NCBI GenBank assembly: GCA_040367435.1
Contig: BAABWY010000004.1
Location: 310,001 to 374,000 of the forward strand
DNA: 64,000 nucleotides
Origin: Hyphomicrobiales bacterium 4NK60-0047b
Lineage (GTDB): Bacteria; Pseudomonadota; Alphaproteobacteria; Rhizobiales; HXMU1428-3
Reading direction: 5' to 3'
Shown here: positions 2,363 through 57,730 of the stretch, one piece after another
Numbering within the stretch: the stretch's first letter is position 1
How the letters are laid out: each line of letters opens with the position of its first letter
Made by a program: the position numbers and the translations under genes
The notes under the pieces: model-generated
The model's database searches: none
What the model was told of the DNA's origin: nothing
Seen by the model: the letters and a program-made list of their open reading frames with translations, nothing else

Positions 2363-2770
2363 ATGACTGGAATCCTCGTTCCCTTTGATGGATCAAAACA
2401 TTCTCTTAAGGCCTTACATGTGGCCTGCGATTTAGCTGAGAAATATGAAAATAAGTTGTTTCTTTTATATATCATACAACTTGAAGCCCCATTTAAACCG
2501 ACCGATGTGAGCCCTGAGGCTCATAAAGATGCTCAGACCATAATAGGTAAGGCTGCTGCAAAAGCCAAACATCGCCGCGTTGATTTTGATATTTTAGATT
2601 TTGAATATGGTGACCCTGCTACTGGTATACTAACTGCTAGCAAACGCATGAAACCAAGCACTATTGTTATGGGCTGCCGAGGGCTAACGGCAGCTGACGC
2701 GGAAATATTCGGCACAGCCTCACGAACCGTGTTCGAACATGCTGAGTGCACCTGTATTTCAGTTAAGTGA
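2363..2770 (+). CDS. Universal stress protein (UspA family)
   Basis: A single-domain 135-residue Usp protein of the nucleotide-binding alpha/beta fold. It opens with ILVPFDGSKHSLKAL (beta1 and the conserved Asp) and near the C-terminus carries VMGCRGLTAADAEIFGTAS, which fits the ATP-binding G-2x-G-9x-G(S/T) pattern exactly. It is therefore the ATP-binding type rather than the UspA type that lacks the motif. Such proteins are cytosolic, often dimeric, and induced by growth arrest or stress; the specific role here is unknown. It stands alone between a divergent membrane-protein gene and a folded intergenic element. Confidence 0.85.
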   Translation: MTGILVPFDGSKHSLKALHVACDLAEKYENKLFLLYIIQLEAPFKPTDVSPEAHKDAQTIIGKAAAKAKHRRVDFDILDFEYGDPATGILTASKRMKPSTIVMGCRGLTAADAEIFGTASRTVFEHAECTCISVK

Positions 2771-2805
2771 GCTTTATTTTATCTCACGGTCTATTACCAT
2801 TTTGA

Positions 2806-2835
2806 GGCTTCAGATTGCCTACCAGCAACCGCACT
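2806..2835 (+). repeat. Diverged copy of the dispersed palindromic repeat
   Basis: The stretch gcttcagattgcctacca followed by gcaaccgcac matches the units of the arrays at 4404 and 38047 (CTTCAG, stem, CCCACT-like loop, stem, CCGC). One stem position is mismatched here (GATTGC against GCAACC). A second hairpin, ACCGC/GCGGT, overlaps its right end. It lies 37 bp downstream of the universal stress protein gene. Confidence 0.65.
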
Positions 2836-2860
2836 GCTAATAGCGGTGGGCCCTCCGATG

Positions 2861-2928
2861 GGCGGCGTTAACGCCGGGCAGCTCATGCTGCCATGTCCGT
2901 GCTCCTTAAAGGAACACTCCCTTCTTCG
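2861..2928. repeat. Folded intergenic core element, copy 1
   Basis: This 68-bp stretch aligns over its whole length with 4635-4701. Both begin GGCGGC, carry GCCATGTCC in the middle, and end AAAGG..CACTCC..TTCTTCG. Copy 1 has clear hairpins: GGCGTTAACGCC, GGCAGC-TCAT-GCTGCC, and GTGCTCCTT/AAGGAACAC with one mismatch. The rest of the 2771-3034 gap is unexplained except for a further GAAGAC/GTCTTC inverted repeat at about 2930. No ORF covers it. It is a repeated, structured non-coding element of unknown role. Confidence 0.6.
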
Positions 2929-3034
2929 GGAAGACACTTCTGAGACGTCTTCTCAATTCATATTAATGCCGTACGCTCTAGTGAGCTCTTAAAACAACTG
3001 AAAACTCATAGTTACTTCATGAAACGGCCGAAAT

Positions 3035-3068
3035 AAAAAATGCCCCCCTATTTCTAGGAAGGCATTTT
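3035..3068 (-). terminator. Terminator of the cold-shock gene
   Basis: Read on the minus strand, AAAATGCC pairs with GGCATTTT across an inner CTA/TAG pairing and is followed by a T-run. It lies about 55 bp beyond the stop codon of the cold-shock protein gene. Confidence 0.75.
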
Positions 3069-3123
3069 CAATGGTAGTATTGCGAACTCATATGATCATA
3101 CGATCAAGTGAGCTCTAGCAAAA

Positions 3124-3336
3124 TTAGCCCATTTGGATGTTTGTAGCTTGCTTGCCACGACCGCGAGGATCATCTTCGATTTCGAAAGAAACTTTGTCGC
3201 CTTCGTCAACTTGAGAGATGCCAGCACGCTCTAGAGCTGTAATGTGTACGAAAATGTCTTTGCTGCCATCTTCTGGAGTGATAAAGCCGAAGCCTTTAGA
3301 GTGGTTAAAAAATTTAATTGTGCCTTTAGTAGACAT
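3124..3336 (-). CDS. Cold-shock domain protein (CspA family)
   Basis: A 70-residue single OB-fold protein that binds single-stranded RNA and DNA as an RNA chaperone. Both nucleic-acid motifs are present: RNP-1 KGFGFITPEDG and RNP-2 DIFVHI. The length is normal for the family. AGGATCC precedes the ATG. The gene has a long leader (about 190 nt if the promoter proposed at 3528-3563 is right), typical of csp genes controlled after transcription, and its own terminator. The genome probably carries several paralogues, so no specific csp letter is assigned. Confidence 0.93.
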   Translation of the reverse strand: MSTKGTIKFFNHSKGFGFITPEDGSKDIFVHITALERAGISQVDEGDKVSFEIEDDPRGRGKQATNIQMG

Positions 3337-3563
3337 AGTGGGATCCTTTCCCGATAAATATTAAAATTTGACAACTAATCTTCTCGACTTCATGTCTCTC
3401 AATCTTTGAGCGTAACGCCATCAGATTTGCTGTCGTCTCAGATAGTCGGGTAGGGCCAGTCTGTCTAAAAAACAAAATAAGTCTTAACCGTGCGTCTGAA
3501 CAAGTGCTCCACTTGCAAGAAGAGCATATTGAGTGTTTTAAGCGCTCAATATAAACAGTGCAA
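3337..3563 (-). promoter_or_regulatory. Long 5' leader and candidate promoter of the csp gene
   Basis: On the minus strand TTGCAC (3563-3558) and TAAAAC (3540-3535) are 17 nt apart, which would give a transcript start near 3528. An 8-bp inverted repeat ATATTGAG/CTCAATAT at 3526-3552 overlaps the -10 region and could be an operator. The leader of roughly 190 nt has no ORF and is long for this genome; long leaders in csp genes commonly act as temperature-responsive structures. The rest of the gap up to 3818 holds only a weak 61-codon reading frame. Confidence 0.35.
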
Positions 3564-3818
3564 GCTTTACTTTAAAATAATGTCCAGAAACTGAGAAATT
3601 GAGTAATTGTTGAGCAATTCTGCGCCATTTCCCAGAAAAACTCTGAGTTCTGCCCATCAATTATCATGGTTCTATAACAGTCTTGTGAATATGTTATGCA
3701 CTCCGAATTTATGCCATATCCATTTAACAAGCTAACTAGGTGGCGCATTTTCTTCACACTAGCTTCTCAACTGTCTGTTTTTTGCTTTTATAAAGGAGCA
3801 TTATTTACCAGATGGCAC

Positions 3819-4379
3819 TCACGCTGCATCCGTTTTCCATTTGATAGAACAGCCCATTGACGGGATCTGATCTTCTGGCCCTTTTCCTGTTTCGACAACT
3901 TGTTTCATTGCCTCAAACAGGTCTCTTTTCACATCAATTGGGGCAGCTTCTTTACGGCTCTCATCTAGACGGCCTCTGTATTGCAAGCCTAAATTTAAAT
4001 CAAATCCGAAAAAATCAGGTGTGCAAACGGCATCATAAGTTTTGGCGATTTGTTGAGTTTCGTCTTGAAGATAAGGAAATGTAAAACCGTGATCCTTGGC
4101 AAACTCGATCATATTTTCAAAACTGTCTTCTTCATATTCATTGGCATCATTTGCGCAAATGGCCACAACCCCTACGCCCATCCCTTGCAACTCTTTCACA
4201 TCTCTCACAATGCGATCAATGATTGATTTAACATAGGGGCAATGATTACAGATAAACATAACCAACGTTGCTTTTTCACCTTTGATGTCAGACAGTCCAT
4301 AGTCCTTACCATCAGTCCCTTTTAGGGTGAAGTCTGGTGCTTGCCAGCCAAAATTACAAATTGGAGTTACTACAGCCAT
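3819..4379 (-). CDS. Thioredoxin-fold AhpC/TSA-family protein
   Basis: A 186-residue soluble thioredoxin-fold protein. It begins with the peroxiredoxin/TlpA-like APDFTLKGTDGKDYGLSDIKG. The redox motif is C44-N-H-C47-P, a CxxC placed like that of thioredoxins rather than the single peroxidatic Cys of peroxiredoxins. VCTPDFFGFD follows, with a cis-Pro-type TP. It has no signal peptide, so it should act in the cytoplasm as a thiol-disulfide reductase or peroxiredoxin-like enzyme; the substrate is unknown. The start is next to AGAGAGATAG. The palindromic repeat array begins 25 bp upstream and would lie in its 5' untranslated region. Confidence 0.8.
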   Translation of the reverse strand: MAVVTPICNFGWQAPDFTLKGTDGKDYGLSDIKGEKATLVMFICNHCPYVKSIIDRIVRDVKELQGMGVGVVAICANDANEYEEDSFENMIEFAKDHGFTFPYLQDETQQIAKTYDAVCTPDFFGFDLNLGLQYRGRLDESRKEAAPIDVKRDLFEAMKQVVETGKGPEDQIPSMGCSIKWKTDAA

Positions 4380-4403
4380 ATCTATCTCTCTTTTTTAGTG
4401 CGG

Positions 4404-4579
4404 CTTCAGATGCCCACTATGCATCCGCCGCGTTTGTGCGCCTTCAGATGCCCACTATGCATCCGCCGCGTTTGTGCGCCTTCAGATGCCCACTATGCAT
4501 CAGGCGCGTTTGTGCGCCTTCAGATGCCCACAATGCATCAGCCGCGTTTGTGCGCCTTCAGGTTGCCCACTATGCATCC
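4404..4579 (+). repeat. Tandem array of five 38-bp palindromic repeats
   Basis: CTTCAG recurs at 4404, 4442, 4480, 4518 and 4556, exactly 38 bp apart. Each of the first four units contains GATGC-CCACNA-TGCATC, a hairpin with stem GATGC/GCATC and the CCCACT-type loop, flanked by GCG on the left and CGC on the right. The fifth is hybrid: its left arm is GGTTGC and its right arm GCATCC. There are no unique spacers, so it is not CRISPR. Because 38 is not a multiple of three, the long plus-strand frame across it is an artefact. The array directly precedes the start of the minus-strand thioredoxin-fold gene. Confidence 0.95.
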
Positions 4580-4634
4580 CGCTCTTATGTTCTCTCTCGG
4601 CTATTCCATGAGCTGAAGCTTTGGGCCTACGAGA

Positions 4635-4701
4635 GGCGGCACTCGCGCCGGACGACTATGGCGCCATGTCCTAACGCCGAAAAGGCTTCACTCCTTCTTC
4701 G
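4635..4701. repeat. Folded intergenic core element, copy 2
   Basis: This aligns with 2861-2928: GGCGGC start, GCGCCATGTCC centre, AAAAGG..CACTCC-TTCTTCG end. Its inner palindrome is ATGGCGCCAT, flanked by GGAC/GTCC. It lies just after the repeat array. Two imperfect copies of CTCTC..CGGCTATTCCA flank it (about 4594 and 4717). No coding frame is credible. The recurrence of this core next to palindromic repeats at both sites suggests a composite element. Confidence 0.55.
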
Positions 4702-4741
4702 TACCTTGCAGGTTACTTCTCTCAACGGCTATTCCAAGTGC

Positions 4742-4779
4742 TTTTTTAGTGGCACTTCAAATGACTACAAAGCATCCGC
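4742..4779 (+). repeat. Degenerate copy of the palindromic repeat
   Basis: TTTTTTAGTGGCACTTCAAA followed by TGACTACAAAGCATCCGC aligns along its length with the first unit of the 4404 array, including its TTTTTTAGTG lead-in, but the stem has decayed. It lies 16 bp beyond the stop codon of the rhodanese gene. Confidence 0.6.
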
Positions 4780-4795
4780 AATAGGCAACAGCGTT

Positions 4796-5188
4796 TTATT
4801 TACTTACAGGGCCACCGGCTTTGATCCATTCTGAAAACCCACCTTTAATATGAGAGACCGGTTTTAGCCCCATGTCACTTGCCGTTTTCGTTGCTAAAGC
4901 TGAGCGCCAGCCTGATGCACAATGAAAGATGAAATGCTTATCTTCTGCAAATAATGGTTTATGATAAGGGCTATCCGGATCAATCCAAAATTCGAGCATG
5001 CCGCGTGGCACATGCATAGCCCCTTCTATAAAACCTTCTCTTTGGCGCTCTCGTACATCTCTTATGTCTACTATGACAGTGCCCTCATCGCCAATGAGAC
5101 TGATTGCCTCATTGGGCTCAACCTCATTAATTTGGCCTCTTGCATCTGCCACCATGTCTTTGATGTGTTTTGTGATTTTTTGCGACAT
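4796..5188 (-). CDS. Rhodanese-like domain protein
   Basis: A 130-residue single-domain rhodanese. It has the VIVDIRDVRERQREGFIEGA core and the active-site loop C90-A-S-G-W-R-S-A with the persulfide-forming cysteine, so it is potentially a sulfurtransferase. The start at 5188 is chosen because AAGGGA lies 6-7 nt upstream; an in-frame upstream ATG at 5230 lacks a site. It has no signal peptide and should be cytosolic. It is separated by 98 bp from the upstream PEP-mutase-like gene on the same strand. The physiological acceptor is unknown. Confidence 0.9.
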   Translation of the reverse strand: MSQKITKHIKDMVADARGQINEVEPNEAISLIGDEGTVIVDIRDVRERQREGFIEGAMHVPRGMLEFWIDPDSPYHKPLFAEDKHFIFHCASGWRSALATKTASDMGLKPVSHIKGGFSEWIKAGGPVSK

Positions 5189-8138: not shown

Positions 8139-8747
8139 ATGGATCATTGGTTAGTTATTTTATGTTTTTCGGCTTTTGTAGGCTATTTATTTGGATCAAT
8201 TCCTTTTGGCCTAATCATCACAAAGCTTGCAGGTATGGGAGATGTTCGTAATATTGGGTCTGGCAATATTGGCGCAACCAATGTTCTACGTACTGGAAAG
8301 AAACCTTTGGCGGTTCTCACTTTACTTGCCGATATTTTAAAGGGATTTCTTCCAACACTTCTTATCTCCAACAATTATGATTTAATTCCATATGGGCTAA
8401 TTGCTGGTTTTATGGCTTTAATTGGCCATATGTTTCCCATTTGGCTTAAATTTAGGGGTGGTAAAGGCGTTGCGACTTACATAGGTGTTGCATTTGGCTT
8501 TTTCTGGCCATCAGGTCTTTGTTTTATTGTTTTCTGGCTACTCATGGCAGTGATCTTTCGCTATTCGTCTCTTTCGGCCCTGGTAGCTTGCCTTGTCACC
8601 CCTCTTCTCACCTTTTTTATGACAGAAGAAGTTATTGCAACGACACTTTTTGTTATGTCAATCTTGGTCCTTATTCGGCATCGTAGTAACATTGAACGGT
8701 TGATTGCCGGTGAGGAAGATAAAATTGGTCAACAACAAACAAGCTGA
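8139..8747 (+). CDS. plsY: Glycerol-3-phosphate acyltransferase PlsY
   Basis: An integral membrane enzyme that transfers an acyl group from acyl-phosphate to glycerol-3-phosphate, the first step of phospholipid synthesis; it needs PlsX, which is not in the window. The 202 residues have five or more membrane segments and all the signature motifs: SGNIGATNVLRTG, DILKG, GHMFPIWLKFRGGKGVAT and HRSNIERLIAGEE. The start is the ATG at 8139 with GAGGGA 6 nt upstream; a TTG immediately before it is not needed. The 3' end overlaps the dprA start by 23 bp, suggesting translational coupling. Confidence 0.95.
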   Translation: MDHWLVILCFSAFVGYLFGSIPFGLIITKLAGMGDVRNIGSGNIGATNVLRTGKKPLAVLTLLADILKGFLPTLLISNNYDLIPYGLIAGFMALIGHMFPIWLKFRGGKGVATYIGVAFGFFWPSGLCFIVFWLLMAVIFRYSSLSALVACLVTPLLTFFMTEEVIATTLFVMSILVLIRHRSNIERLIAGEEDKIGQQQTS

Positions 8748-10611: not shown

Positions 10612-13296
10612 ATGAATGTTGTTATTGTTGAATCTGCTGCCAAAGCAAAAACAATAAATAAATATCTTGGAAGTGACTACACGGTCCTTGCCTCTTATGG
10701 TCACGTTAGAGACCTTCCATCAAAAAACGGCTCTGTTGAACCTGATAATGATTTTGAAATGCATTGGGATACTGATTCTAAATCAGCAAAAATTCTCAAA
10801 GACATTACAAATGCTGTGAAAGGCGCTGACAAACTAATCCTCGCAACTGACCCCGACCGGGAAGGTGAAGCCATTTCTTGGCATATCATGCAGGTTTTAG
10901 AAAAGAAGAAGGCGCTTAAGAATGTAACAGTTGAGCGTGTTGCCTTTAATGCTGTCACCAAATCAGCGATTTTAGAAGCTTTATCTAATCCTCGTGAAAT
11001 TGATCAACCTCTTGTTTCAGCTTATTTGGCACGGCGTGCTCTTGATTATTTAGTTGGATTTAGTCTTTCCCCTGTTTTATGGCGCAAACTTCCTGGCTCT
11101 CGCTCTGCTGGCCGTGTTCAATCTGTAGCATTACGTTTAGTGTGTGCACGAGAATTAGAAATCGAGCAATTTAAGCCGATTGAATATTGGTCTGTTCTTG
11201 CTGATCTGAAAAATAAAGATCAGGCAAAATTTCAGGCTCGTATCTATTCTGAAAATGGGAAAAAATTTGCTCCCCATGACATTCAGAATGAAGAACAAGC
11301 TCATCGGATAAGAGATGCTGTGCAATCGGGCGACTTGAAGGTAGGCTCTGTTGCAGCCAAATCTGTTCAAAGACGCCCCTATGCACCTTTCACAACCTCA
11401 ACCCTGCAAATGGATGCTGCTCGTAAATTAGGATTTACAGCCAGGCAGACCATGCAAGTTGCGCAAAAACTTTACGAAGGTATTGACCTTGGAGGCGAAA
11501 CCGTTGGTCTCATTACTTACATGAGAACGGATGGTGTGCAGATCATTCCTGAGGCGATCCAATCGTGTCGCTCCGTGATTGGTCAAGATTATGGTGATAA
11601 TTATGTACCTGAAAGCCCGCGGCTTTATAAAACTAAGGCGAAAAATGCTCAAGAAGCTCACGAAGCAGTTCGCCCCACAGAATTAACGCGCCGGCCTAAT
11701 ATGGTTTCCAAATATTTGGATAAGGATGGCCAAGCGCTCTACAAACTGATTTGGCAACGGACTATCGCCAGTCAAATGGCTGCGGCTGTTATGGAGCGAA
11801 CGACTGCTGATATTGATGTTAGCACTTCTGACGGTTCAAATTTTCAATTAAGAGCCACTGGTTCAGTTATGAAATTTGACGGTTTCCTAAAACTTTATGA
11901 TGAAGGCAAGGATGAAGCGACTTCTGATGATGACAAGTTGTTACCGGCTTTAAATGAAGATGAGCCTTGCTCAACGGATAAGATTGAAGCTAAACAACAT
12001 TTCACTGAGCCACCTCCTCGCTACAGTGAGGCTAGCCTTGTGAAAGGTCTTGAAGATTTAGGTATTGGTCGCCCGTCTACTTTTGCTAGTACCTTGAGTG
12101 TTTTGCGAGACCGAGAATATGTTCGATTGGAAAAGAAGCGCTTTATCCCTGAGGATAAGGGCCGTTTGGTAACAGCCTTTCTTGAAAGCTTTTTCACGCG
12201 CTATGTTCAGTATGATTTCACAGCTGATCTTGAAGAAAAACTTGACCTGATTTCTGACGATAAACTTAAATGGAAAGATGTTTTAAAAGAATTCTGGACT
12301 GACTTTACCTCTGCACTTGATGAAACAAAAGACCTTCGTATTTCAGCTGTACTTGATGCTTTAAATGAGATGTTAGGTCCTTATGTTTTCCCTGTGACTG
12401 AAGAAGGAACGGACCCCAGAAAGTGCCCTGCCTGTGATGACGGGCAGATTGGTCTAAAAGTCGGGCGATTTGGCGCCTTTGTTGGTTGCACCAACTATCC
12501 TGAATGTAAATTCACACGCCAGTTTAACCAATCAAATGATGAGGCCAGTCTTGGTGATGCTGGAGATAAATGCCTTGGTGAAGACCCGACAAGTGGTTTG
12601 CTTGTTTATGTGAAAACCGGACGGTTTGGGCCTTATGTACAACTTGGTGATGCTGAAGATACGGATAAGCCAAAACGTGCTTCACTTCCTAAAGGACAAG
12701 ACCCTGAAGCTCTTGATCTTGAGCGGGCCCTGCAATTGCTCTCATTACCACGTGATGTTGGCAAACACCCAGAAACCGAGAAGATGATTACAGCAGGACT
12801 TGGACGTTACGGACCTTTTGTTTTGCATGATGGACTTTATGCGAACCTTCCAAGTGCTGAAGACATTTTCACTATTGGTCTCAATCATGCTGTCACCCTG
12901 TTAGCTGAAAAAGCTAAATCCGGTGGTCGGCGCGGGGCACAAGCTTTGAAAGAACTTGGTGAACACCCAGAACTTGGCGGACCTGTTAATGTGATGTCAG
13001 GGCGTTATGGTCCTTATATTAAACATGGTAAGATCAATGCGACCTTGCCAAAGGACAAAGAACCTGAAACCATTACGATGGAAGAGGCTGTTGCGTTGAT
13101 TGCAGCGAAATCCAACGCCAAACCAAAAGCAAAGAAAGCCGCCCCAAAGAAAAAGGCTGCTGCTAAGAAAAAAACAACAACAAAGAAAGCGGCCCCTAAA
13201 AAAGCAGCTGCGAAAAAGACCACAGCTAAAAAGGCAGCACCTAAGAAGGCTGCAACAAAAAAAGCTAAAGAAGCTACTGATGATGATGAGGCTTAG
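10612..13296 (+). CDS. topA: DNA topoisomerase I
   Basis: Type IA topoisomerase that relaxes negative supercoils. The ATG at 10612 has GAGG 6 nt upstream and starts directly on the Toprim domain (VVIVESAAKAKTI, then TDPDREGEAISWH). The active-site tyrosine is Tyr303 in LITYMRTDG. The gate region PPPRYSEASLVKGLEDLGIGRPSTFA follows. One clear zinc-ribbon segment (CPACDDGQ..VGCTNYPEC) is at about residue 605, and repeated GRFGPYV/GRYGPYI modules follow. The 894-residue protein ends in about 55 residues of Lys/Ala/Thr repeats, a histone-H1-like tail common in alphaproteobacterial TopA. Confidence 0.97.
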   Translation: MNVVIVESAAKAKTINKYLGSDYTVLASYGHVRDLPSKNGSVEPDNDFEMHWDTDSKSAKILKDITNAVKGADKLILATDPDREGEAISWHIMQVLEKKKALKNVTVERVAFNAVTKSAILEALSNPREIDQPLVSAYLARRALDYLVGFSLSPVLWRKLPGSRSAGRVQSVALRLVCARELEIEQFKPIEYWSVLADLKNKDQAKFQARIYSENGKKFAPHDIQNEEQAHRIRDAVQSGDLKVGSVAAKSVQRRPYAPFTTSTLQMDAARKLGFTARQTMQVAQKLYEGIDLGGETVGLITYMRTDGVQIIPEAIQSCRSVIGQDYGDNYVPESPRLYKTKAKNAQEAHEAVRPTELTRRPNMVSKYLDKDGQALYKLIWQRTIASQMAAAVMERTTADIDVSTSDGSNFQLRATGSVMKFDGFLKLYDEGKDEATSDDDKLLPALNEDEPCSTDKIEAKQHFTEPPPRYSEASLVKGLEDLGIGRPSTFASTLSVLRDREYVRLEKKRFIPEDKGRLVTAFLESFFTRYVQYDFTADLEEKLDLISDDKLKWKDVLKEFWTDFTSALDETKDLRISAVLDALNEMLGPYVFPVTEEGTDPRKCPACDDGQIGLKVGRFGAFVGCTNYPECKFTRQFNQSNDEASLGDAGDKCLGEDPTSGLLVYVKTGRFGPYVQLGDAEDTDKPKRASLPKGQDPEALDLERALQLLSLPRDVGKHPETEKMITAGLGRYGPFVLHDGLYANLPSAEDIFTIGLNHAVTLLAEKAKSGGRRGAQALKELGEHPELGGPVNVMSGRYGPYIKHGKINATLPKDKEPETITMEEAVALIAAKSNAKPKAKKAAPKKKAAAKKKTTTKKAAPKKAAAKKTTAKKAAPKKAATKKAKEATDDDEA

Positions 13297-18060: not shown

Positions 18061-18325
18061 CCGACTACTAAAAATAAGAACCAGGCTAAACAAAGGAAAT
18101 TGGGGCTTAAAACGCAGCTGGCCCCACAACACAACGGTAGCGGGGTGAAACCGAAGTTGCGAGGCCAGCCTTTGTCAAATGGACCAAAGAGGGCCTGTGG
18201 TCATTTGACTTCGAGGTCGACTAGTATCGGCGTAACGAGGAGGCCACTCATACCTTTACCAGCCGACCGCACCCAACGGAACCAGGAGATGCGGCGGTAC
18301 CTGTACATCCCGCTGGGATTTTCGT
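18061..18325 (+). ncRNA. Candidate structured non-coding RNA (unidentified)
   Basis: Between rpmG and pleD lies nearly 1 kb without a credible gene. Its centre is markedly richer in G and C than the AT-rich flanks and full of complementary segments: GTCAAATG/CATTTGAC (about 18175/18201), GCTGGCC/GGCCAGC, GGCCT/AGGCC, CCGCA/TGCGG, and a final ATCCC-GCT-GGGAT followed by TTTT near 18306-18322 that could end a plus-strand transcript. I looked for RNase P, SRP, 6S and tmRNA hallmarks on both strands and found none. Strand and limits are inferred. The remaining 18326-18782 is AT-rich and featureless. Confidence 0.3.
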
Positions 18326-23012: not shown

Positions 23013-23050
23013 TTTAGGCGCTCCTTCAGTTGCCCACTAGCAACCGTCGG
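23013..23050 (+). repeat. Single copy of the dispersed palindromic repeat
   Basis: TTTAGGCGCTCCTTCAGTTG followed by CCCACTAGCAACCGTCGG matches the array units, with perfect stem GTTGC/GCAAC around CCCACTA. It lies in the 467-bp divergent gap between eipB and the RidA gene. The rest of that gap is AT-rich, with no gene seen. Confidence 0.85.
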
Positions 23051-38024: not shown

Positions 38025-38046
38025 ATTTATCCCTCTTTTAGTTATG

Positions 38047-38247
38047 CTTCAGGTTGCCCACCAGCAACCGCACTATTTAGTTGCGCTTCAGGTTGCCCAC
38101 TTGCAACCGCACTATTTAGTTGCGCTTCAGGTTGCCCACTTGCAACCGCACTGTTTAGTTGCGCTTCAGGTTGCCCACTTGCAACCGCACTATTTAGTTG
38201 CGCTTCAGGTTGCTTGCGTGTGTTTTCAGTTTCCCAGCAGAAACCAC
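38047..38247 (+). repeat. Tandem array of 39-bp palindromic repeats
   Basis: CTTCAG recurs at 38047, 38086, 38125, 38164 and 38203, exactly 39 bp apart. Complete units contain GGTTGC-CCACTT-GCAACC, a perfect 6-bp stem, preceded by TTTAGTTGCG and followed by GCAC. The fifth unit is cut short, and a sixth, diverged copy at 38225 has stem GTTTC/GAAAC around CCAGCA. No unique spacers. The 39-bp period keeps two plus-strand frames open, giving false proteins with 13-residue repeats. The array directly precedes the phosphatase start. Confidence 0.95.
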
Positions 38248-46510: not shown

Positions 46511-46579
46511 TGCTTCAGATGCCCACTCTTTTGACTAGCCTTCAGGTTACGCACTAACAACCGGCGCAGCATCCGCACA
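46511..46579 (+). repeat. Apparently nested palindromic repeats
   Basis: The left half of a GATGC-type unit (GCTTCAGATGCCCACT) is followed by about 40 bp that themselves resemble a GGTTGC-type unit (CCTTCAGGTTACGCACTAAC then AACCGGCGC), and then by the right half AGCATCCGCAC. The simplest reading is one repeat interrupted by another. It lies between two convergent stop codons. Confidence 0.7.
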
Positions 46580-57617: not shown

Positions 57618-57647
57618 AAAAGAAATTTTTCTCTATTTCATTTTTTT

Positions 57648-57730
57648 GAAAAAATGGCCGTTCATAACGAACGGCCCAAGTTAAAAGGGAGGAAACGCCC
57701 ACATATGGGCATTGCTGGTTCTTCAGCAAT
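57648..57730 (-). ncRNA. mmgR: suhB/mmgR-type (alpha-r8) small RNA
   Basis: On the minus strand, an 80-odd-nt transcript unit: hairpin ATTGCTG/CAGCAAT, hairpin GCCCATATGTGGGC, unpaired GTTTCCTCCCTTTTAACTT, then terminator GGCCGTTC-GTTAT-GAACGGCC with a T-run. A promoter TTGAAA-N17-CATATT (57765-57737) puts the start exactly at the first hairpin. TTTCCTCCCT is, as I recall, the conserved single-stranded core of the alphaproteobacterial mmgR family, also described as the suhB motif found opposite suhB-type phosphatase genes; the adjacent plus-strand gene here is an inositol-monophosphatase-family HisN. MmgR is about 77 nt and restrains polyhydroxybutyrate accumulation in Sinorhizobium. Confidence 0.8.

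Follow-up and report, generated by a model that had tools for sequence, protein, structure and literature searches.

REPs are the closest described counterparts of the repeats reported here. As surveyed in PMC3733652, they bear GTAG or CGTC tags and their dimers are mostly inverted; those of the CGTC type are mainly alphaproteobacterial, include the rickettsial RPE-4 and RPE-6, and appear in that account as short hairpins with 8- to 9-bp stems, AT first pairs, 4- to 5-nt loops and CCA tails that occur mainly as HH dimers and have no dedicated transposase. The same survey places REPs within other palindromes in A. variabilis (GTAG-15), T. roseum (GTAG-23) and H. neapolitanus (CGTC-1), and it does not settle whether REP-like repeats that lack a dedicated transposase are mobilized, or by which agent (PMC3733652). 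In P. fluorescens SBW25, according to PMC3116915, the orientation of tandem REP arrays depends on the side of the genome, being forward on one and reverse on the other. The transposases of IS200/IS605 elements are described as targeting the lagging-strand template, and a loss of tnpAREP from REP-bearing genomes has been suspected (PMC6006769). Elements that insert into that template are predicted to show strand polarity.

In this study, we have analyzed a palindromic repeat array and its relatives in the draft genome of Hyphomicrobiales bacterium 4NK60-0047b; "the window" denotes the whole 64,000-nucleotide stretch from which the analysis started. Mosaics of palindromic units are known in the Hyphomicrobiales as the rhizobial mosaic elements (RIME, A/B/C palindromes). 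In the open-access literature, judged by titles and the openings of abstracts, we recognized no paper on the present family or on a replication-polarized, loop-nested REP.

Repeats in the window

The features of the window are listed in Table 1. The preliminary description had reported five hairpin units exactly 38 bp apart, all with a GATGC/GCATC stem; the spacing is exact, but only four of the five units carry that stem, the fifth being a hybrid (GGTTGC/GCATCC) with one mismatched pair. The other stem alleles mentioned there are present, namely, GGTTGC/GCAACC (38047-38187), GTTGC/GCAAC (23024) and GTTTC/GAAAC (38224, in a degenerate copy). All copies found in the window run in the plus direction, as had been claimed, and a fuzzy scan of the reversed window gave 1 and 0 matches.

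Table 1. Hairpin repeats and long elements of the window (SH, hairpin repeat of about 38 nt; LE, long multihairpin element; z, folding relative to shuffled sequences)
Feature	Coordinates	Strand	Cores or anchors	Remarks
LE with SH in first hairpin	2781-2938	+	anchors 2781, 2849, 2891; SH core 2808-2831	
Tandem array of five SH units spaced 38 bp	4398-4579	+	cores 4404, 4442, 4480, 4518, 4556	Tandem Repeats Finder: period 38, 4.8 copies, 93% matches; hybrid unit 4556-4579
LE, long covarying multihairpin element	4592-4701	+	anchors 4592, 4624, 4664, 4691	adjoins 3' end of array; taken alone, no better fold than shuffles, z -0.33
Second LE, 5' part	4719-4785	+	anchor 4719	degenerate SH in first hairpin; sequence read by eye
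Single SH core, GTTGC allele, CTC class	23024-23046	+		pattern match
Second tandem array of SH, GGTTGC allele, 39-bp units	38037-38213	+	cores 38047, 38086, 38125, 38164	Tandem Repeats Finder: period 39, 95% matches
Nested pair: host SH (GGTTGC...GCAACC) with degenerate GTTTC-allele SH in loop	38203-38259	+	inner core 38224-38246	inner core found with 3 substitutions; host by eye; z -2.68
Nested pair: host SH (GATGC...GCATC) with SH in loop	46513-46575	+	inner SH 46540-46563	host by eye; no better fold than shuffles, z +1.61

At gathering level, Rfam matched neither SH nor LE in the window, and a permissive search of positions 2600 to 4900 gave three matches, none on SH or LE. On the minus strand, the small RNA families EcpR1 (Atu_C6) and mmgR (suhB) matched at 18210-18320 and 57640-57717, and a sub-threshold match to the cspA thermoregulator (3034-3492, minus strand) lies over what seems by eye to be a cold-shock gene.

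A family of about 38 nt with two covarying stems

The 38-bp array belongs to a large family of hairpin repeats, which we have named SH. Its pattern, CTTCARN{0,2}TGCCYAC, was matched 206 times forward and 187 times in reverse (393 matches, with positions available for the first 100) in the draft genome (3,466,275 bases in 26 contigs, 99.67% complete), and the reversed-pattern control gave 0 and 0. A covariance model built from 11 window units was run over contig C1 (1.16 Mb, in 60 stretches) and returned 163 rows at an E value of ≤0.5; removal of 4 overlap duplicates left 159 distinct copies, 147 on the minus strand and 12 on the plus strand in a tally made by eye. Restriction of the motif to the window, which would have spoken against the preliminary description, is thus excluded, and the view taken there of a palindromic family with a REP-like design is supported.

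Read 5' to 3', an SH consists of a T-run, an outer arm, an unpaired CTTCA bulge, an inner arm, a CCACNA loop, the returning inner arm, C or CC plus G, and the returning outer arm. In a flank profile of 225 cores, T occupies the positions 9 and 8 nt 5' of CTTCA in 86% and 81% of cores, respectively, and the consensus ahead of CTTCA is TTAGTTGTG. The 157 fully paired inner arms were GGTTGC (53), GATGC (52), GTTGC (39), GTTTC (6), GGTTTC (3) and four others. The sequence of the outer arm varies freely: among 130 cores, its first pair is GC in 80, CG in 20 and AT in 8; its second is CG in 42, TA in 41 and GC in 20; and its third is GC in 68, TA in 14, CG in 9 and AT in 3. A further class (CTC; 24 of 161 parsed cores) has GCTC...GTCGC flanks and lacks a simple outer stem.

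The preliminary description had held that base pairing is kept while the sequence changes. The covariation inside the window is thin on its own, with one inner and two outer pairs changing on both sides; compensatory changes are, however, found in copies elsewhere in the genome, and the signal is strong at the scale of C1. Their absence, the other result that would have spoken against the preliminary description, was thus not observed. In the C1 model alignment (150 rows, 146 distinct, itself fitted to the structure), 84.5% of cells are paired, compared with 21.4 to 51.0% when the 3' partners were slid, and changes on both sides are found at eight of nine pairs. For the inner and outer stems together, 149 cells are doubly changed, compared with 50.6 (standard deviation, 5.3) after shuffling, and none of 500 shuffles reached 149. 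Any inner arm of 4 to 7 nt is fully paired in 157 of 320 cases, compared with a shuffled mean of 51.6 and maximum of 73. The outer stem, which the pattern does not impose, gave 334 Watson-Crick cells of 520 (shuffled mean, 185; maximum, 218) in 130 of 161 cores, after removal of the CTC class (24 cores) and of 7 cores in which no G follows the inner stem; its register (offset 1) was picked after a count one base off had given fewer pairs than the shuffles. Registers one base either way gave 107 and 91 cells, below their own shuffles, and with the register left free the mean of 3.19 is barely above the shuffles (mean, 2.73; maximum, 3.15).

On the plus strand, the advantage of two single window units over shuffles in folding was only modest (z of -1.87 and -0.75). 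Both strands of a unit fold, at -6.1 and -6.6 kcal/mol in one unit and at -4.3 and -7.8 kcal/mol in another, and in both units measured the complement strand gives the more stable fold.

A longer element with the same habits

The remaining over-represented k-mers of C1 derive from LE, an element of about 115 nt. Its order is TTTCTCTCACGG, CTATTC, a hairpin, GGCCTCCGAGGGGCGG, a hairpin, CCGGGC, a hairpin, CATGTCC, a hairpin and CTCCTTCTTCG. In 43 uninterrupted copies, 1,074 of 1,118 cells are paired, compared with 916 (maximum, 936) in column shuffles, the structure having been predicted from the same 43-copy alignment; individual positions show up to four pair types. C1 has 42 copies on the minus strand and 2 on the plus strand, and 68 of 71 copies agree with the majority of their own stretch.

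Nests and arrays

Some SH copies lie inside the hairpins of other elements. LEs longer than 128 nt make up 28 of 71, and CTTCA lies within 22 of those 28; LE linkers occur on both sides within 75 nt for 32 of 225 SH, most of which, judged by eye, are inside an LE hairpin and a few between two LEs. GATCAG is present in 8 of the 28 long LEs, and an LE hairpin at offsets 992401, 249085 and 467245 of the reverse-complemented C1 holds a further palindromic unit, GATCAGCTTATCCGTACTCGCT..GTTCGGGCTGATC, which has a T-run on its 5' side.

For SH within the loop of another SH, we found 19 candidates in the own genome, 11 with a matching host arm, and 14 in other genomes, 11 with a matching arm, some of the candidate rows being plainly unrelated coding matches. 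A restored host stem was found around 24 of 225 SH (shuffled mean, 9.8; maximum, 17), although a few of these 24 rows look like an array or chance. In a stricter set, restricted to copies whose left-hand host half is incomplete, the figure was 18 of 33, compared with 10.5 shuffled; 18 was reached by 4 of 2,000 shuffles because few arm alleles exist. Solo SH gave a modest result in the flanking-stem test: stems of at least 6 bp flank 16 of 90 (shuffled, 4.4; maximum, 12) and stems of at least 7 bp flank 5 of 90 (shuffled, 1.3; maximum, 6). Nesting is thus present in a subset, and most SH copies are not demonstrably inside a loop.

Neighboring SH copies within 250 bp of each other form 99 head-to-tail pairs and 2 pairs in opposite orientation, and the head-to-tail spacing is most often 34 to 41 bp.

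Strand polarity and its relation to replication and transcription

SH copies are strongly polarized. Of 225 cores in the fetched sequence (≤1 substitution), 216 have the majority orientation of their own stretch; C1 has 113 cores on the minus strand and 8 on the plus strand, and one of the rare plus-strand copies (1135100) lies in the hairpin of an LE that has the usual orientation. Genome-wide, the GGTTGC allele follows the majority strand of its contig in 80 of 82 copies, both exceptions being in C1, and in a congeneric genome (G002) 46 of 50 copies match the contig's majority, among the matches listed and by a tally made by eye.

The GC skew of C1 is -0.07 to -0.17 in every 50-kb step. Its minus strand bears the sole 16S rRNA gene found and, in a motif scan, rpoB, rpoC, tuf, nusG, rplB and rpsM, assigned by motifs that we take to mark these genes; looser motifs gave chance matches on both strands. 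Because the minus strand is the strand of the rRNA, rpoB and ribosomal protein genes, the conserved strand of SH would be the leading-sense strand, that is, the template of the lagging strand, with the direction of replication read from skew and gene strands in a 26-contig draft rather than from a located origin. GC and AT skews are both strong in C1 and most of C2; in the sampled parts of C3, C5, C6, C7 and C8 and the right part of C4, including the window, the GC skew is weak or close to zero, while the AT skew is mostly clear. Replication direction there therefore rests on AT skew and on the consistency of the repeats themselves. In all 16 of the sampled stretches with SH copies, the sign of the AT skew agrees with SH orientation; 20 stretches were taken, mostly picked to hold SH, so that they are uninformative on density. 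SH thus has the lagging-strand-template orientation bias of IS200/IS605-type mobile DNA, and since both strands of the unit fold, this polarity requires that the sequence of one strand be read.

With a home-made gene caller, 93 of 97 SH pattern matches in C1 are intergenic and 4 are inside predicted genes. Relative to their neighbors, the 93 intergenic copies are antisense to both genes in 38 cases, sense to both in 29, in convergent space in 18 and in divergent space in 8; convergent space amounts to 25.9 kb and divergent space to 63.3 kb. An orientation set by transcription was rejected, as copies antisense to both neighbors outnumber those that are sense to both. At locus L231 of G002, near position 8183, the open reading frame for a large protein of the adhesin/CdiA-like type contains an SH, and the frame is unbroken.

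Distribution and presence or absence between species

The family of the organism comprises one genus with eight genomes (G000, the genome of the window, to G007), in which SH pattern matches numbered 393, 296, 305, 30, 239, 106, 1 and 2, respectively. The covariance model matched 46 times in G003, 5 times in G006 and 46 times in G007; the whole-genome model search scored 150 candidates per genome, and where copies are plentiful its results therefore do not give the copy number. The 46 model matches in G007, set against 2 pattern matches, indicate that its copies have diverged from the pattern. LE follows a different distribution: G005 has 106 SH and 2 LE pattern matches, G006 has 1 and 34, and G007 has 2 and 0. 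Across 397 genomes of the order, those beyond the family that rise above background by eye are G201 (17 matches), G343 (11; control, 3) and perhaps G256 (6; control, 1). At least 119 pattern matches carried names, and the best 80 of these 119 belong to Methyloligella sp., Hyphomicrobium sp., and other Hyphomicrobiales or Hyphomicrobiaceae.

Alignment of 119 fetched loci of other genomes with the own sequence gave 34 gaps, with flank identities of 66 to 98%. Several gaps correspond to an SH, a nested SH or an LE present on one side (for example, L066 versus L220, L118 versus L228 and L094 versus C1), and one to an extra SH array unit (L046 against L224); many others of the 34 hold sequence unrelated to these elements, and some do not have the form of a clean insertion. 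Neither a target site duplication nor an exact excision was established among these 34 gaps between species. A third repeat type, with ends CTAGAGCAT...ATGCTCTAG, is also one-sided at several aligned loci (for example, L041 versus L227, L046 versus L224, and both L092 and L126 versus C1).

Search for an enzyme

We searched for three enzyme families, PF01797 (Y1 transposase), PF00078 (reverse transcriptase) and PF04986 (IS91-type Y2). PF01797 had no match over the cutoff in the genome of the window (best E value, 0.59). Within the genus, it matched two genes, both in G002, and none in the other seven of the eight drafts (78 to 99.67% complete). The two G002 genes are RAYT-like, lie at 11451-12125 and 15011-15676 of L231 between AATTACGGTGACAGT-type repeats with no SH adjoining, and are within a locus that we named FhaB/CdiA-type by eye from its sequence. 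At an E value of 0.001, no Y1 was found in G201, G343, G256, G003 or G005. PF00078 had no match in the genome of the window and, among the eight genus genomes, matched only in G001 and G003; PF04986 likewise had no match in the genome of the window, a weak negative because 0 of 14 control genomes matched either. A recognizable Y1 gene was accordingly rejected as the partner of SH, none being over the cutoff in the genome of the window and the G002 genes being flanked by other repeats; a Y1 enzyme that acted in trans and has since been lost or has diverged may nevertheless have served it.

Discussion

SH shares an imperfect palindrome with conserved pairing with the GTAG REP/RAYT elements, and it resembles GTAG REPs, BIMEs and REPINs in being a small intergenic imperfect palindrome with many copies, few of them in divergent space. 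Unlike these, SH has no GTAG or GTGG foot 5' of the hairpin in the flank profile of 225 cores, no partner RAYT that we could find, neighbors that are head to tail, a near-uniform polarity and copies nested in loops. The Y1 gene of a GTAG REP/RAYT system usually lies between its REPs, and the dimers of such systems are inverted (HH/TT). Like the CGTC REPs, SH is an alphaproteobacterial short hairpin for which the genome of the window gave no dedicated Y1, reverse transcriptase or Y2 match; it differs from them in its CTTCA bulge, CCACNA loop, direct neighbors, stems and tail, and a CGTC string is found in a minority of copies (of 161 parsed cores, 29 have a 5' flank ending in TC, and in 22 of these the inner stem is followed by GTC). 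The preliminary description had likened the array to REP/RAYT-type elements; that membership is not supported, and because SH departs from REPs in tag, partner gene and dimers, we do not class it as a REP proper.

As hairpin repeats within other palindromes, SH copies recall GTAG-15, GTAG-23 and CGTC-1; however, those REPs have one target palindrome type per family, whereas SH is found in SH loops and in several LE hairpins and is strand polarized. SH differs from IS200/IS605 elements in that the element itself shows no transposase gene and none was detected in the genome. By description rather than by sequence, SH and LE also resemble the RIME-type mosaics of palindromic units in Hyphomicrobiales.

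We consider it probable, though by no means assured, that SH and LE are nonautonomous REP-like elements that spread as single-stranded DNA at replication forks, with hairpin loops as favored sites, and whose enzyme has been lost or has gone unrecognized. In this scheme, SH and LE would fold as single-stranded DNA on the lagging-strand template; the loops of hairpins that have already folded would be the preferred targets, which would give rise to nests, and head-to-tail copying would give rise to arrays. The enzyme acting in trans would most likely be a single-strand-processing nuclease or transposase, either lost or outside the families searched. The observations themselves extend to the number of copies, their covariation and nesting, a polarity that does not depend on transcription, the differences in presence between species and the lack of a detected Y1 or reverse transcriptase gene; we infer from them the single-stranded intermediate, the targeting of loops as the origin of the nests and the enzyme acting in trans.

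A conservative form of the same explanation is that SH and LE are classical REPs that a Y1 transposase once moved and that are now remnants after loss of the RAYT. The stem-bulge-stem anatomy and the lagging-strand polarity fit single-strand Y1 transposition, the lagging-strand targeting of IS200/IS605 and the suspected tnpAREP loss in REP genomes offer precedents as reported in PMC6006769, and pattern counts that span 393 to 1 within the genus also speak in its favor. It is possible, but on balance unlikely, given that seven of eight genus drafts gave no Y1 match and the G002 pair is flanked by other repeats, that the three SH-bearing outgroup genomes also gave none, and that the repeats have no GTAG-type foot and 99 head-to-tail versus 2 inverted neighbors.

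At the other end, SH and LE may be served by a previously undescribed system of single-stranded DNA mobilization, neither Y1/RAYT nor retroelement, that would recognize, on the template of the lagging strand, the CTTCA bulge and the CCACNA loop and would place elements in the loops of hairpins. We regard this stronger proposal as speculative and put it forward tentatively; were it true, elements would grow into nested hairpins.

No enzyme would be required if the repeats had grown through replication slippage and template switching at hairpins of the lagging strand, and the 34- to 41-bp spacing of head-to-tail neighbors, the extra unit of L046 against L224 and the lagging-strand bias are what such growth would produce. 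As an account of the whole family, it is improbable, since slippage cannot take copies to hundreds of new loci or place a different allele in a host loop, and it leaves unexplained why one of two foldable strands was chosen.

It is more improbable still that SH and LE are polarized signals made by the host, similar to KOPS or to primosome assembly hairpins, and selected for replication or segregation. Their polarity, intergenic location and high copy number are in keeping with such a role; set against it are pattern counts that drop to 30 (G003), 1 (G006) and 2 (G007, which retains divergent copies), presence or absence at aligned loci, nests and arrays, freely varying stem sequence, and the fact that LE, although equally polarized, is distributed differently. 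That the repeats act in RNA, as 3' transcript hairpins such as terminators or stabilizers, is very improbable despite the hairpin, the T-run and the enrichment in convergent space, because the excess of copies antisense to both neighbors, a T-run that is 5' of the hairpin on the conserved strand and the lack of an Rfam match on SH or LE in the window all argue against it.

In conclusion, whichever enzyme may have moved SH and LE, the genus offers a handle on the process: SH pattern counts range from 1 to 393, species differ in the presence of copies, the orientation is close to absolute, and landing sites are recorded as nests, so that single-strand, fork-coupled, loop-targeted insertion becomes directly testable. 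The CTTCA bulge and the CCACNA loop provide a probe with which the enzyme may be sought.
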